This document shows, piece by piece, positions 11,901 to 41,818 of a stretch of 42,839 bases of DNA. The notes beneath the pieces were generated by a model that ran no database searches, was not told where the DNA came from, and saw only the letters and a list, made by a program, of their open reading frames with translations. The position numbers and the translations under genes were made by a program. Numbering within the stretch: position 1 is the stretch's first letter; every line of letters begins with the position of its first letter. Source of the stretch: a virus. The DNA lies in the IMG/VR virus record IMGVR_UViG_3300034050_000139, positions 1 to 42,839 of that record; one strand, written 5' to 3'.

Positions 11901-13499
11901 TTAATATCCTCCAGACCCATGAGTTGTAACAAATGACTGGCTGTTGTCAACATGATCGAGATTAGCAATCGCGGCGTATCGGCAAACGTCAATAGGATCT
12001 TTCCACGCTTCTTTTAGTCCACCTTCGCCCGTGTATTCGCTGAGTGCCTGAATTATGTTCTCGCAGTCGCTACTGACATAGAAATGCGGTCTGTTGACAG
12101 AATCCAGCGGCTTAGTCGTATCCCATGACATTTTGCCGATAAGTGCTTGCAATCCGTCGTCAATGTCAAGTCCGGGGGCGGGGATGCAAACCATGCCGGA
12201 TTCATTTAGATCCTCGATGATTGAAGATGATCCGTCTTGCGCTTGATACTTTGCTGCCCCAAGACGAGGGTCAATCAATCGCTCAAAGATCTCCTCGTCA
12301 CCCTCCATCTCTTGAATAGACTCAATGTAGTCACGGATACCAAAACCTTGCCCCTTGGCTCCCGGCCCCGGCATCCACTTGCCGCTTTTCCATTCCGCCC
12401 AGTCACCAACGTCAACTCCCGGCCACTCACGGTAAACCCAGAAGGTTCCGCTCTCGTCAATGGCGATCCAGCACATGAACCAATTCTTTGCTCCAGCAGG
12501 GTCAATGATATGGTAGCGCGTAATGTTTTTAGTTGGAATAGTGTCGGGGGAGACCACGTTGACAACCTTGTTGAACTTAGGGAATTTAGTCGCATGGGAC
12601 TTCATCGGCACTCCATAGGCGCGAATGAGGATTTCCTCCCGCGTGCGTCCTGCCAGCGTCTCCTTGATTCGGTCGTATCCGCCAAAAGCATTGTCCTGAG
12701 AGTGGAAGTAATGCACTGACGCGTTAAGCCTCTTAGACTTCTGGACGTATGGAACCAACTCCCCGTTAAGCAGTTCAGCCGGGCGAGACTCAATGGTCGT
12801 CGCTCCATCAAGATACTCCTTGATGACTTCCGTCCAACCGTCAATCGGAGTGAACGTCACCAGCAACTTTGAGTTCCGCGTGGCTAGTCGGAACCTGAGC
12901 GTATTGATTAACTCTGGCCCCAAAAGATATTCATCGAGCCACACTCCAATGTTATGCCACACAGCATTCTTAGATCCAAGTTCCGCGCCTTCCAGAATCG
13001 TCGGATTGTTCTGATACTGCGAATATGTCTTGAAGATGATCTGGGAACCGTTTGGAAGGATTAGCGACGAGTCCGTGAACCCGGTCTTCTTCTTGTAGGA
13101 AATGTAAGTATTTGCGCTAGTCTGCTTGGTTTTGAGGTTCTCTGGCAACCAGTCCCAAACGGCACTTTGTTGCTGGCGAATGCTGACCTCGGAAGTCTGC
13201 GCGAAGCAGAAGATTTCAGACTTTGGATTCTCAATGGCAGCACGGACAACTGAGAATGCTCCCCACTGCGTCTTGCCACTGCGGTTGCCTCCTAGCGCAA
13301 GGATCTCGTTGACCTCGAACAACTGCTCTTCAGCCTTGCCCCAATGCGGAAGGCGGAAACCGTAGTGATACGGGTCTTTCTCAGCATTCTCAATCGCCTC
13401 ATGGTAAACTGAGTGAAGTCCGATCAGCTCGTCAGGCTCCATTTGCACCATCTCCTCATCGGTAGGTGGCGTTAGGATTGCGTGCTTTTTCCAGATCAT
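11901..13499 (-). CDS. terL: Terminase large subunit, 532 aa
   Basis: This is the DNA-packaging motor and headful or site nuclease. The ATPase domain has a Walker A GGNRSGKT (residues 70-77) and a Walker B ending in WLDE (D189, E190). The nuclease domain starts near ITRYHIIDPAG (D333) and has the later IDPR motif (409-412) typical of the Terminase_6C RNase H fold. Length is normal. Its ATG overlaps the stop of the small-subunit gene, and the portal gene lies downstream, the classic packaging order. Confidence 0.93.
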   Translation of the reverse strand: MIWKKHAILTPPTDEEMVQMEPDELIGLHSVYHEAIENAEKDPYHYGFRLPHWGKAEEQLFEVNEILALGGNRSGKTQWGAFSVVRAAIENPKSEIFCFAQTSEVSIRQQQSAVWDWLPENLKTKQTSANTYISYKKKTGFTDSSLILPNGSQIIFKTYSQYQNNPTILEGAELGSKNAVWHNIGVWLDEYLLGPELINTLRFRLATRNSKLLVTFTPIDGWTEVIKEYLDGATTIESRPAELLNGELVPYVQKSKRLNASVHYFHSQDNAFGGYDRIKETLAGRTREEILIRAYGVPMKSHATKFPKFNKVVNVVSPDTIPTKNITRYHIIDPAGAKNWFMCWIAIDESGTFWVYREWPGVDVGDWAEWKSGKWMPGPGAKGQGFGIRDYIESIQEMEGDEEIFERLIDPRLGAAKYQAQDGSSSIIEDLNESGMVCIPAPGLDIDDGLQALIGKMSWDTTKPLDSVNRPHFYVSSDCENIIQALSEYTGEGGLKEAWKDPIDVCRYAAIANLDHVDNSQSFVTTHGSGGY

Positions 13500-14062
13500 A
13501 GAATCTCCGCTTCGATTGCGTCTTCCCTGATTTTGCTGGCAATACGCGCCTTAGCGTCAAAGATCATCTTGGCAGCGTCATCTAGGCTTGCCCCCTTGCG
13601 ATGCTCCACGATTGAAGACGCCATGCCCGTGAGTTGCGCGGCCTTGTCGGTAAGGATGCCAACCGTTACGGCTAGCTTATCAGGGCTGATCTTGGCAAGT
13701 TCGTCAGGATTATCAAACAACTGTTGGGAACGCTCAAATAGCAAATCCGTGTAATCCTGAGCCGCAATCGCGTATCTCATCGAGAATTCCTTGCGCTTTG
13801 TCTCCAGCGTGTCGTTATGACGCCATTGCAGCCCCCTGATGGTCTCCCTGCCGAGTCCCGTCTTCTTTTGGATGTCGGTTATCCTCGCGCCTTGTGCGGC
13901 CAGCCACAGGGCCATTGCGGCCTTGTTTGGGGCATAGTGCTCGACGCAGTTTGAAGGATTTAGCTTTGCACGCTCCTTGACCTCAAGAAACCACGCGGAC
14001 TTGTCTCCTCGCTCGTCAACGTAATCTGCCTTCAGCTTTTCGTTTGGATCATCACTCATCAT
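13496..14062 (-). CDS. terS: Terminase small subunit, 188 aa
   Basis: A DNA-recognition protein with a helix-turn-helix at about residues 55-82 (GARITDIQKKTGLGRETIRG), followed by long helices suited to oligomerisation. It directly precedes the large terminase and overlaps it by 4 nt, and overlaps the giant virion gene upstream by 4 nt. The HTH plus position support the call; small terminases are too diverse for a firm family assignment by eye. Confidence 0.78.
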   Translation of the reverse strand: MMSDDPNEKLKADYVDERGDKSAWFLEVKERAKLNPSNCVEHYAPNKAAMALWLAAQGARITDIQKKTGLGRETIRGLQWRHNDTLETKRKEFSMRYAIAAQDYTDLLFERSQQLFDNPDELAKISPDKLAVTVGILTDKAAQLTGMASSIVEHRKGASLDDAAKMIFDAKARIASKIREDAIEAEIL

Positions 14063-17000
14063 TTATCCTTGATTTGTGGAATGTTTCTAAATGCCGAAGA
14101 TTTTGATTTTCCTTCATTAGTTTCAGGCAATATATATAAAATTCCACCATTCTCAAAGTGAGAAATTGCTCCCGGAACAGCATCTGGATCTAAATTGATG
14201 CAGCCGCTTGTTATCCTATTATCTTGCGCATCTTGTGATTTAAGTGCCTTTCTTCGTTGTTCCGGCGTAGCTGTTATTGATTTTGAAGGAATGCGATGGA
14301 TTAAAAAATTATTTGTTCCAACACGATCAAATCTTAATGATGGGCCATAATCTTCAGAGTCGTATCTTTTGGCGTCAAATCTTCCAGCTGGAGTTCTGTG
14401 CGATACTTCGCCAGTAGTTATTATGTCATCTCCTTTTTTTCTTCCAAATAATGCTGGAACACTTGAAACTAAATGTCCATTCTTATTGAAAAACATAATA
14501 GATCCATTGTTTTTATCGGCTATTGCAAATGGAGCATCATTATTGTCTTTGTTTTTAACAATCCATTCAGATGTTATTGCTGAAATTGACGATGCGATGA
14601 TTTCGTTATTTTTGGCAGGATCTTTAATTTTAGGAATCTCTTCAAGATTCGCGCTTGGAATAATTGTGGGAAGTTGCTCATCATCAGAAGCATACAAAGA
14701 AGATTTAATCATTTGTATTTGCTTAGATTCATCAGTTGTCGGACTATATTTAGGTATTTCAATTTTCCCATCGTAATCAACAGGTGCTGAAACTGGCAAT
14801 GATTTCATTACGGGGACTTTTCTGATTGAACCTCTAGGTGCTAGACTTGATCTTAAACTAACAACAACAGTATTTGAATTTAATTTTTTACTTAGACCTG
14901 ACCAAGTTTTTGAAATAATTTCATGTAATCGTGGAGATACGGACTTAGGAGACACAACCCAATCAGCGATCTGCTCCACAAATTTACCGGAAGTGTTGTG
15001 ATTCCACGAATTTTCTCCCAAAACACTCAGTGTTTTTTTGCGCTCTTGATTTGATAAGGAATCTTCAACACTGGCGATAACATTAGATTGTAGTTTTTGG
15101 TAGTTGTTTTCATTCTGGTCTTCCCGCTGCATTTGACGCGATGCTGCGCCAGAAAGCAAGAGTGAAATTGAATTTGATGATTTTTTACCCTTAGAGATTG
15201 GCGGGATCTCGATAACTAGCTCCCCATTTCGGTTCATCCGTGGAGGCTGAGGCATCAAGTTGTCTCGCAAGCTGTAATACGAGTTTTGCCCGTAAGGAAC
15301 AGCAACCTCGCCAGTCATTTGGATCTTGTCCCCAAGGCGGTCCCATGCAAACGTCCGGTAGATACCAGAAGTCTTATTGAGATTTCTTTTATCAAATAGA
15401 GGGTTTGTTTTCTTTTGCGACTCAGTAAGAAGACCTTGAACGGAGTTGATGAAGTTCTTACGCTTTTCCCAATTCTTAGGATCTTTGCTTTGGAAGTAAG
15501 CATCAGTAGTTTGATTCTTTGCGTGAAGCAGTGCTGAATTGTCAATATCGTTTAAGATGTCAGCATACTTCATCCCAAGTTTTTTGGCGATGCTGCTTTT
15601 CACCGCTTTTGCGATGTTTAACTTCAACTGAACCATGTCCATTCCGACAAGATAAAGACGGCCATTTTTCAATTCCCAGTTAATCGGAACAATATTGTTT
15701 GATGTGATTCCCTCAACTTGAACTGATCTGCCTTGTTCTATCGGTTTGTCCGTAAGAAGATATGACGATGGCGTCCCCATAGAGCTGTTGATTGCAATAA
15801 CTCCAGCAAAGTCTCCATTGGCAATAACGCCGCTTTTATCAAGCCCTTTAATTGCACCGTCCGTCAAGTATCCAAACCCATTCCCATTAGCGTCTGGATT
15901 AAGCACGTTGTCTGGAAGCGGAGCTCCACCTTGGACGGCTTCCTCATTGGCCTTCCTGATTATCTCTCCGCCCTTATAGTGCTTTGGATCTTGGGATGGG
16001 GCATCTTTAATGATCTGTGGCTTAGGGGCTTGTTTTGGAAGCCCAGCCGATTCACGATACATGTTGCGAATCATCGCCTTAACTTCTGGAAGCTCCTTCA
16101 TGCCCTTGGCGAGTAATCCTGAACCATCCACCATACGACCAAGATTGTCTGTTGCTCCACCAAGTTTGAAGTGAAGGTTTTTCACGATTGGAGTCGCCGC
16201 CATTGTTGACTTAAACACGCTTTCAATGCTGCGCCTGAGAGGAGTTTTTTGTGAAGCCTTATACAAGCCTCCTCCCAGAACATCCTCAAATAGTGTTTGC
16301 GCTCCGTTGTCGGTAAAATACTCAATCGCCGCGTCGTTAATGTCGATCTTTGGCAATCCTTGCGCGTCCAGTCGTGAATTATACTCATCCCAGAATTGCT
16401 TGAACTCAGGGTCAAGACTGCCATCTGTATTGCGCACAAGCCCCTTGCGCGTTTCGTCACCAAGCATTAGGGATGCCACAGCACCATCGCTTTGATGCTT
16501 AAACTGAATTCCATGAAGAGCTTCGTGAGCAGCCGCAGCCTTCACAATGCCAGCACGATCATTATAGTTGATTGTTGCTTGCTTGTTTACTGGATCAAAC
16601 TTGCTATTGCCATCTTTAACGAATCTCCAAGAATCAAACATTCCGGGATAAGCGGCATCAATGGAAGATGCAAATTGCTTAACGTCTCTGTATGGAACAG
16701 ACTCAAATTGCCGGAATCCTTCTGGATTGGTTGCCTTTACTTTGTTTCTAAAGTTGTAGAACTCGTTGTTCTTTACTTGATTCCAGTTGTTCCTGCTTCC
16801 AATTACTCTGCCAAAAGATCCAAAGACAAACGCACCCGCTCCCGCTCGCTCCATTGCGTTCTCATCTAGCCCTTGCGAGTTGATTGCTTCATACAGCGTC
16901 ATCGCCGGAAGCGCATGTGCTGTCCCCTTGGCCGCGCCAACAACTCCTCTGGTAATAGGAGTGGTGTAATCCATCAACCCACCAAACGCTTTCGTCATGC

Positions 17001-18657
17001 GACCAGCGTCTTCATTTGCGGCAACACGCCTCCAGAATGGAGAGCTGTTCGTAAGCTGAAGCATCTCGTCACCAACAATGTTGGAGAACGCCGCCGCCTT
17101 TTTTAATAGAGGTGCAGCGACAAGTGATCCGACACGGATTGCACCATAAACCTTATAAGCCGTCCCAAGTGTTGCAACACCCGCCGCGTGAACAAGATAT
17201 GGAAGCCTTCCCATTCCAATCCCTCTTTCAATTGCTCTTAGCTTACGGTTTGTCCACAAAAACCCGTTGCCAAGAGCATCCGCCGCGTCAGCAACCTTTT
17301 TGGCTGCACCGCTAGTTATCTTCCTGCCAACCATGCTTGGAGCGTTGAGGTCGTCAATTTTAGTCGATGCGCTTTGAACGATACCTTCGTTATGCTTGAT
17401 GCCATCGCTTACTAATCCTAATCGAGTTTGCGACTCACCAATTGTTGCTGTTACATTGTCGAGTTGAGACTTCGCCAATCCGGCAGCTTCTGTATTGCCA
17501 ACAAGTAGCGCGTCATCCAATTGCTTCTGGAAAACCGAAACACTAGCCGTAGCCTCGTCAATGTTCTTTGCAATTAAAGTTGACGCTTCTCCAAGTCTTC
17601 CGAGATTTGTGCTTGCAGCTGCAGCTTCTTTGGCAAACTTGGCTGTTTTAATAGTCCTTCCCAAAGAGAGCAATTTTCCTCCACCAACCGTCAAAGCCCC
17701 AACTGCTAATCCCGGAACATCTGTAACCATGCCTCCAGCTGCGTATGCCCCACGATCCATTTCCGCCATTTTCCTCGCTCCATCAACAGGACCAAATTGA
17801 CGAGTGTAGTCTTCCGATGCCCTTGCACGCATTTCAACCGCTTGCGTTGTTGCCGTGAGGGCATCCCAAGTTTTCTCTGCTGTAACGTCTTCGTATAAAG
17901 CGTCTCGAGTGTCTACAACAAACTTTCCCCACAAGTTGTCAACTTTGATTTGCTCGTCAGTTGCACCAAGTGCTTTGCGGGCCGGGTTGATAACGTTCTT
18001 ATCAAGAAAAGCCCCAAGTTTTCCAGATGACGTTACTGCCGTTTCGGCAGCACCCTCTGCAATTTTTGCGATTGCGGCAGTCCGCTGGTCAAGAGTGAGG
18101 CCACCAAGAGGTGATGCCGTAACAGCGATAATTGATTTCCCCATCTCACCAATTCCCTTGAAGATGTTCATGATAGCATTACCTTCATCTTCAGGTTTTT
18201 CATTAAGCCTAGCCTCCTCACGAATCTTCCACTTTGAAAACCGCTCCAGATTCTCTGGGTCATTAGGGTCAAGCATTGTCCCAGCATCCATTTTAGACGT
18301 AGGCAAAAGATCTTCGTCTGGAGTGGTGAAAGCAACTCCCTTTTCCGTAAGAGCACCATCCTTAATTAAGCCACGTTCCTCCATCAACAAATAATCACTG
18401 CCAAGGGGAGTTGCTTCTCCATTTGAGTCAAGCAATCCTCGGGCCTTCATTCCTTCTTCGGTGGCAAACTCTGGAATTTGATATTCAGGCGCAACAATTC
18501 TAGGATCGCTTAGTTCAAGCTCTCTCCAATTTGGTGGTTTGGCAGCATCCTTCTGTGCTTGTAAATTACCCTGCTCTTGTTCAAGATACTCAAAAATAGC
18601 ACCTTGTTCAAGCTTGCTGGTCTCTGGATCTACCTGCTCGTCTTCTTGGTTTTCCAT
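14059..18657 (-). CDS. Giant multidomain virion protein with zinc-protease motif and L,D-transpeptidase domain, 1532 aa
   Basis: The N-terminal ~480 residues are helical and acidic. A hydrophobic, glycine-rich stretch (about 485-517) could enter a membrane. HEALHG at residues 711-716 is a zinc-metallopeptidase HExxH motif, with a later AIEYFTDNGA segment that may supply the third ligand. The C-terminus (about 1390-1532) is a YkuD-like L,D-transpeptidase: an APFAIADKNNG start, TPAGRF, IHRIP (H1454) and TSGCINL with catalytic Cys1486. It lies between ejection-protein genes and terminase. It is probably an internal virion protein ejected into the host, where the two enzymatic parts could open or remodel peptidoglycan and process proteins. 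The enzyme roles follow from motifs; ejection is inference. Confidence 0.85.
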   Translation of the reverse strand: MENQEDEQVDPETSKLEQGAIFEYLEQEQGNLQAQKDAAKPPNWRELELSDPRIVAPEYQIPEFATEEGMKARGLLDSNGEATPLGSDYLLMEERGLIKDGALTEKGVAFTTPDEDLLPTSKMDAGTMLDPNDPENLERFSKWKIREEARLNEKPEDEGNAIMNIFKGIGEMGKSIIAVTASPLGGLTLDQRTAAIAKIAEGAAETAVTSSGKLGAFLDKNVINPARKALGATDEQIKVDNLWGKFVVDTRDALYEDVTAEKTWDALTATTQAVEMRARASEDYTRQFGPVDGARKMAEMDRGAYAAGGMVTDVPGLAVGALTVGGGKLLSLGRTIKTAKFAKEAAAASTNLGRLGEASTLIAKNIDEATASVSVFQKQLDDALLVGNTEAAGLAKSQLDNVTATIGESQTRLGLVSDGIKHNEGIVQSASTKIDDLNAPSMVGRKITSGAAKKVADAADALGNGFLWTNRKLRAIERGIGMGRLPYLVHAAGVATLGTAYKVYGAIRVGSLVAAPLLKKAAAFSNIVGDEMLQLTNSSPFWRRVAANEDAGRMTKAFGGLMDYTTPITRGVVGAAKGTAHALPAMTLYEAINSQGLDENAMERAGAGAFVFGSFGRVIGSRNNWNQVKNNEFYNFRNKVKATNPEGFRQFESVPYRDVKQFASSIDAAYPGMFDSWRFVKDGNSKFDPVNKQATINYNDRAGIVKAAAAHEALHGIQFKHQSDGAVASLMLGDETRKGLVRNTDGSLDPEFKQFWDEYNSRLDAQGLPKIDINDAAIEYFTDNGAQTLFEDVLGGGLYKASQKTPLRRSIESVFKSTMAATPIVKNLHFKLGGATDNLGRMVDGSGLLAKGMKELPEVKAMIRNMYRESAGLPKQAPKPQIIKDAPSQDPKHYKGGEIIRKANEEAVQGGAPLPDNVLNPDANGNGFGYLTDGAIKGLDKSGVIANGDFAGVIAINSSMGTPSSYLLTDKPIEQGRSVQVEGITSNNIVPINWELKNGRLYLVGMDMVQLKLNIAKAVKSSIAKKLGMKYADILNDIDNSALLHAKNQTTDAYFQSKDPKNWEKRKNFINSVQGLLTESQKKTNPLFDKRNLNKTSGIYRTFAWDRLGDKIQMTGEVAVPYGQNSYYSLRDNLMPQPPRMNRNGELVIEIPPISKGKKSSNSISLLLSGAASRQMQREDQNENNYQKLQSNVIASVEDSLSNQERKKTLSVLGENSWNHNTSGKFVEQIADWVVSPKSVSPRLHEIISKTWSGLSKKLNSNTVVVSLRSSLAPRGSIRKVPVMKSLPVSAPVDYDGKIEIPKYSPTTDESKQIQMIKSSLYASDDEQLPTIIPSANLEEIPKIKDPAKNNEIIASSISAITSEWIVKNKDNNDAPFAIADKNNGSIMFFNKNGHLVSSVPALFGRKKGDDIITTGEVSHRTPAGRFDAKRYDSEDYGPSLRFDRVGTNNFLIHRIPSKSITATPEQRRKALKSQDAQDNRITSGCINLDPDAVPGAISHFENGGILYILPETNEGKSKSSAFRNIPQIKDK

Positions 18658-41245: not shown

Positions 41246-41818
41246 TTAGTCTAGATAGCCCATGACTCCGTGAGCGATAGCTCTTGCAATGTCAAGTTTT
41301 TTACTCGTCATCAATGCCCAGTCTTTCGGGCTACTTCCGAAACCAACCTCGCAAATGATCGCTGGACAATGCGTTCCCGAAAGGAATTCTGAGCCGCGAT
41401 CACCTTGGAAGCGTGGTTTTGCTCCTCTGGCTTTTATTTCGCCAACTCCCAAACACATTTCGTCGTGGAGGCTTTTAGCCAAGGCCTTCCCGTTGCTGCT
41501 GCTGCTCCAATACAGCCACTCATGGCCGTTCGCCTTTGGATCATCAGAGGAGTTGAAATGCAACTCAATTGCAATAGTCGCGTTGCACTCCTTTAGCCTT
41601 TTAGCTAACCACCTTTGCGCGGAACCGTAACCGGCCCCTTCATACTTGGAGATTTCAACAGTGTCGACAGCCCTTTTCCCAAGCTCGTCAACGATCATTT
41701 CTCCAAGTTGACGATTGTAGCTCCATTCTGATTCGCCACCTACTGATACCGCTCCACCCTCGATTCGCCCGTTGACGCTGCGAGAATGCCCAATGCAAAT
41801 TGCTACTAGTTGACTCAT
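41246..41818 (-). CDS. Endolysin, N-acetylmuramoyl-L-alanine amidase (Amidase_3 type), 190 aa
   Basis: Zinc and catalytic residues of the Amidase_3 fold are visible: IGHSR (H11), SEWSYNRQL (E31), IELHFNSS (H87) and IICEVGFGSS (E157). It should cut the bond between muramic acid and the peptide stem to release progeny. There is no signal peptide and no added cell-wall-binding domain, so export depends on a holin; the tiny membrane proteins directly upstream are candidates. A single-domain endolysin fits a Gram-negative-type wall. Confidence 0.88.
   Translation of the reverse strand: MSQLVAICIGHSRSVNGRIEGGAVSVGGESEWSYNRQLGEMIVDELGKRAVDTVEISKYEGAGYGSAQRWLAKRLKECNATIAIELHFNSSDDPKANGHEWLYWSSSSNGKALAKSLHDEMCLGVGEIKARGAKPRFQGDRGSEFLSGTHCPAIICEVGFGSSPKDWALMTSKKLDIARAIAHGVMGYLD

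Follow-up and report, generated by a model that had tools for sequence, protein, structure and literature searches.

Do phages bring a peptidoglycan stem-editing enzyme into the cells they infect? The question is posed by an open reading frame (ORF) of 1532 codons in a virus record that is 42,839 bases long and is called the window here. The initial annotation described the product as a virion protein that joins an HExxH zinc protease to an L,D-transpeptidase. The ORF is intact over the proposed extent and lies on the minus strand, and HEALHG (711–716), His1454 and TSGCINL with Cys1486 are all found in one chain at the residues given. The joining itself needs restating: both parts share the chain, but not as a fixed two-enzyme machine, the YkuD domain being a swappable payload on a conserved body. 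The features are collected in Table 1.

Table 1. Features of the 1532-residue ORF, its neighbouring genes, and other giant phage proteins with a YkuD domain
Feature	Residues or length	Position	Strand	Basis or remark
Terminase large subunit		11901..13499	(-)	
Small terminase subunit, probable		13496..14062	(-)	inferred from position and helix-turn-helix-like sequence
ORF of polyvalent type, at the place of P22 gp16	1532 aa	14059..18657	(-)	intact, ATG start
YkuD L,D-transpeptidase-fold domain	1378–1492	14182..14526	(-)	Pfam match
Putative catalytic Cys in DNRITSGCINL	Cys1486	14200..14202	(-)	alignments
Putative catalytic His	His1454	14296..14298	(-)	alignments
Leader and linker before YkuD	1196–1340	14638..15072	(-)	homologous to giant phage protein L050
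Conserved tail NSISLLLSGAASRQMQRED	1162–1180	15118..15174	(-)	opens the stretch common to L007; ends many relatives
Conserved body	1–1148	15214..18657	(-)	common to about 40 IMG/VR relatives (40–94% identity)
Zincin-like region	about 640–800	16258..16740	(-)	motif and conservation; limits approximate
Probable third zinc ligand	Glu779	16321..16323	(-)	invariant
HEALHG	711–716	16510..16527	(-)	HExxH invariant across relatives
Relative of P22 gp20 / Sf6 gp12 ejection protein	292 aa	18659..19537	(-)	
L050	at least 5371 codons			embedded YkuD
L052	2770 codons			embedded YkuD
L053	2568 codons			embedded YkuD
L060/L061	2392 codons			embedded YkuD
L062	at least 4199 codons			embedded YkuD
L063	2651 codons			embedded YkuD
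P0002	2318 aa			embedded YkuD; polyvalent-type protein

Gene neighbourhood

The ORF is located in a co-directional late block, one base from an upstream gene that is related to P22 gp20 and Sf6 gp12 in sequence searches (E 4e-6 to 6e-5). Homologues of this gene carry the annotation 'released from the phage upon host infection' or that of a DNA ejection protein, in keeping with the ejection-type neighbours reported earlier. Downstream are the probable small terminase subunit and then the large terminase. In a P22-type phage gp16 directly follows gp20, and since the upstream gene is a gp20/Sf6 gp12 relative, the ORF occupies the place of gp16. The likeness is one of place: P22 gp16 gives no significant sequence match to the ORF, which is more than twice as long and carries enzyme-type domains, and homology to gp16 at the sequence level was rejected. 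C75C1 (L150), the annotated phage whose TerL and capsid are closest to those of the window, has in the corresponding place proteins of 2769, 375 and 1343 residues, with neither an HExxH nor a YkuD motif.

The YkuD domain

The Pfam YkuD profile (PF03734) scores 23.6 bits, narrowly over its curated cut-off of 23.4, and 27.9 bits in a search of the phage's own genome. Three other lines agree with the assignment. Bacterial relatives of the domain are found by tblastn, some of them annotated as L,D-transpeptidases; His1454, Cys1486 and the DNRI[ST]xGC motif are invariant in all copies aligned (two alignments); and all 38 PDB matches at E ≤ 0.001 in a fold search are YkuD-fold L,D-transpeptidases or L,D-carboxypeptidases. 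The AlphaFold2 model used for this search (residues 1330–1532) is of moderate quality, with pLDDT 68 and pTM 0.70. Its best structural matches include Csd6, LdtMt1 and Pgp2, of which Csd6 and Pgp2 are carboxypeptidases; a pLDDT of 68 is too low to pick a reaction. A sequence search of the PDB with the YkuD alignment gave mainly NHL-repeat noise, ranked over weak L,D-transpeptidase matches. The pattern [ST]xGC[IV][NR] arises in 0.04% of shuffles of the 1532-residue protein. Profile and model together assign the YkuD fold to the C-terminal domain, as the initial annotation had expected; its enzymatic activity is putative. The Ser before Gly-Cys, to which that annotation drew attention as replacing the usual His, is unremarkable. 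The residue at this position varies within the YkuD subgroup (H 44, F 30, Y 3, N 2 and S 1 in 80 bacterial relatives), and a special variant was rejected.

The zincin-like region

Across an alignment of 16 proteins, down to 40% identity, H711, E712, H715 and E779 do not vary, and an HExxH motif arises in 0.8% of shuffles of the 1532-residue protein. Strands and helices follow one another around HExxH as described in PMC5512222. Zinc-peptidase profiles match the relatives weakly (DUF6782 best, 0.0042; M10 and others), the MPTase-PolyVal profile (PF18818) gives no match at E ≤ 10, and a PDB sequence search with the zincin alignment returned nothing useful. A fold test of the region yielded a poor model (pLDDT 54.7) with no Foldseek match. 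The zinc-protease claim is thus upheld at the level of conserved residues and not by the fold model: the HExxH motif and the downstream Glu779 indicate a probable zincin-like metallopeptidase.

Interchangeable payloads on a conserved body

Relatives of the body were collected from two IMG/VR scans (41 loci, L002–L042, all from uncultured sources and many of them fragments); none was found in the phage collection, the plasmid collection or the genome-collection scan. Pfam finds no polyvalent (LPD) domain in residues 1–1148, and the ORF as a whole contains no named LPD domain. After residue 1148 the relatives diverge: some stop at once, some finish in the tail NSISLLLSGAASRQMQREDK, and others carry modules. 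The module of L005 is an ART-PolyVal domain. Modules of the L031–L036 type (L031, L032, L034, L036 and L041) open with a domain resembling the E3-binding domain of 2-oxoacid dehydrogenases (E 2.5e-5 in L034), and the remaining C-terminal modules match nothing known or give weak matches. YkuD is present in L002, L007 and L028 only; L003, with a body 94% identical to that of the window, is without it. The C-terminal payload is exchangeable while the body is conserved, and YkuD is one of several such payloads.

Identity between the window and L007 is 85.8% in the body and 97.8% from residue 1162 onward, and the G+C content of the module is 0.35–0.38 as compared to 0.47 for the body; the higher identity and lower G+C of the module suggest that the payload moved recently between phages. 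The two YkuD domains have only nine differences (dS 0.041, dN 0.009). Close relatives with different payloads form a natural set of phages for comparison.

The tail at the swap site may serve as a binding or packaging peptide and may mark a point of recombination. In distant relatives the tail, found at 15118–15174 of the window and at the C-termini of relatives, has the variant ARSISSAISGAS. Read-through past the stop codon in L006 and L021 was considered and rejected, the second open stretch being the downstream small-terminase gene. The E3-binding-like domain is odd for a phage ejection protein. L008 and L015 have a large C-terminal module in common (SHFPDIPNYVAHMR...EIQSDRHQ); it weakly matches a family of giant phage proteins named 'endolysin'. 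The modules of L014 and L018 look ART-like by eye only and were not counted as evidence.

YkuD domains in other giant phage proteins

A YkuD domain of the same subgroup is embedded in no fewer than seven further giant phage proteins, from 2318 to over 5300 residues; the viral YkuD scan relied on one short motif, and many loci are fragments. LPD38, LPD1 or ART-PolyVal occurs alongside YkuD in four of them (L050, L060, L063 and P0002), an N4 virion-RNA-polymerase-like N-terminus in P0002 and L060, and HExxH in L050, L053 and L060. L060 and L063 adjoin a member of a 'DNA ejection protein' family. P0002 is encoded by L043 (CP061838.1), a 60.5-kb circular molecule annotated as an E. coli plasmid, which also has holin and lysozyme genes and is probably a phage-plasmid. 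Before YkuD, the window and L050 share a homologous stretch; it includes a hydrophobic segment in several giants but not in the window. Among the results of a structure search of viral proteins are large phage proteins with the automatic names 'Large polyvalent protein associated domain-containing' and 'L,D-TPase catalytic domain-containing', so databases already contain such proteins.

The YkuD tree is limited by its long branches, its reliance on one short domain and the choice of bacterial sequences by similarity. In it, seven of the eight embedded domains group together, separately from the sampled bacterial enzymes, and the AU test does not reject a single clade of all eight (p-AU 0.197). 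The bacterial L,D-transpeptidase-like proteins (Sphingomonas, Stenotrophomonas, Lysobacter, Variovorax and Comamonas) belong to the same DNRI[ST]xGC[IV]N subgroup as the window domain, at roughly 27–39% identity. They are encoded by ORFs of 222–545 codons, none of them giant, and form a separate branch, whereas the window domain sits in a giant ORF.

Genes of about 115 codons encoding stand-alone YkuD-like proteins were seen in Stenotrophomonas and Xanthomonas phages (L065:6004-6354, L066:3947-4294 and L067:4944-5288). Each adjoins a gene for a hypothetical protein of 390–530 residues, a recurring pair.

Proposed function

We favour, at somewhat better than even odds, a virion-ejected polyvalent protein at the place of P22 gp16, whose YkuD payload would edit stem peptides of the host peptidoglycan in the periplasm. 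The body with its zincin-like peptidase would be the delivery and processing part, with the payload site after residue 1148; in the window phage the payload consists of the short tail, a helical leader and the YkuD domain. Judging from gene order and neighbour homology, the protein would be packaged and ejected along with the P22 gp20-like protein. YkuD would then be exposed in the periplasm, the site of its substrate, during ejection. We infer this exposure because peptidoglycan stem peptides are the substrates of YkuD enzymes and because no strongly hydrophobic segment usable as an export signal was found in the ORF. As in other members of the family, His1454 and Cys1486 would form an acyl-enzyme with a tetrapeptide stem, leading to L,D-carboxypeptidase trimming, or to exchange or cross-linking, and to a local change in the wall of the infected cell. 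The zincin may release payloads from the body by cutting, as proposed for polyvalent proteins in PMC5512222. Such a protein would extend the cargo that phages appear to inject by a wall-editing domain that depends on a cysteine, and its single swap site would link P22-type ejection blocks to polyvalent proteins.

The payload probably provides an accessory activity directed at the host or at competitors and not a core step of DNA entry, since payloads differ among close relatives, most of which lack YkuD. A more specific version is tentative, and we would sooner bet against it: a virion-delivered, Tlde1a-like L,D-carboxypeptidase or D-amino-acid exchange enzyme, one of the interchangeable payloads of the ejection protein, might alter the infected cell's wall, for instance as a defence against later phages or to make entry into certain hosts easier, with YkuD an unrecorded, long-standing domain lineage of polyvalent proteins.

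The strongest competitor, itself unlikely, makes YkuD an entry tool that loosens the wall hole for passage of the DNA or reseals it with 3-3 cross-links. The ORF does lie within an ejection block, and the T7 gp16 transglycosylase, conditional on highly cross-linked peptidoglycan, is a precedent for an accessory wall enzyme (PMC8954989). However, most relatives, including L003 with its 94% identical body, carry nothing or unrelated payloads in place of YkuD, so the domain is not generally required for entry, and the general resealing role suggested in the initial annotation is improbable. We give about half as much credence to cysteine chemistry with a protein target, either a host lipoprotein or the phage conduit, or to action in the cytoplasm. 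An ART payload occupies the same site, and ARTs are described as a class that modifies proteins, nucleic acids or nucleotides (PMC5512222); the fold and the annotated L,D-transpeptidases among the closest cellular relatives nevertheless indicate stem peptides. Slightly less credible again is a late-made protein that is not ejected and works on the wall during lysis. Its position in the late block would suit this role, and stand-alone YkuD genes are known from other phages, but an Amidase_3 endolysin is already encoded elsewhere in the window (41246-41818), the neighbour is related to ejection proteins, and no strongly hydrophobic segment for export was found in the ORF. That YkuD is a decayed or structural remnant devoid of activity is very improbable, as the catalytic residues are all kept, the ORF is intact and nonsynonymous changes between the window and L007 are few, despite the long tree branch and the bare Pfam score.

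Comparison with known systems

The ORF resembles polyvalent proteins as described by Iyer et al. 2017 (PMC5512222): these are large multidomain proteins, presumed to be injected, in which a zincin-like peptidase is combined with unrelated enzymes. Here a zincin-type motif and YkuD, two unrelated enzyme-type domains, likewise share one large chain of a mobile element. The ART-PolyVal sister payload in L005 and the company that YkuD keeps in other giants (LPD38, LPD1 and ART-PolyVal) add to the likeness; a named LPD domain, common but not required in polyvalent proteins, is what the body of the window ORF lacks. The peptidoglycan-attacking domains listed in the main text of PMC5512222, the founding paper on these proteins, are a lysozyme, a SpoIID-like transglycosylase and a DD-peptidase, and that text mentions neither YkuD nor a transpeptidase. 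In the open-access literature, we found no paper that combines 'polyvalent protein', transpeptidase and phage, nor one that combines D-transpeptidase, phage and ejection protein.

By analogy, the T7 gp16 transglycosylase and the type VI secretion (T6SS) effector Tlde1a may be the two nearest precedents for the working of the YkuD payload. T7 gp16 is also an ejection protein with a wall-acting domain, needed only when the peptidoglycan is highly cross-linked (PMC8954989). Its transglycosylase is N-terminal, whereas the window ORF has a C-terminal, swappable YkuD cysteine enzyme. Tlde1a also has the YkuD fold; it trims and exchanges stem peptides (PMC9638812) and is delivered into the periplasm of another bacterium. 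Unlike the window domain, it is a stand-alone effector with an immunity protein. It ranks 46 and 48 in the fold search, in which the window YkuD is better matched by Csd6, LdtMt1 and Pgp2.
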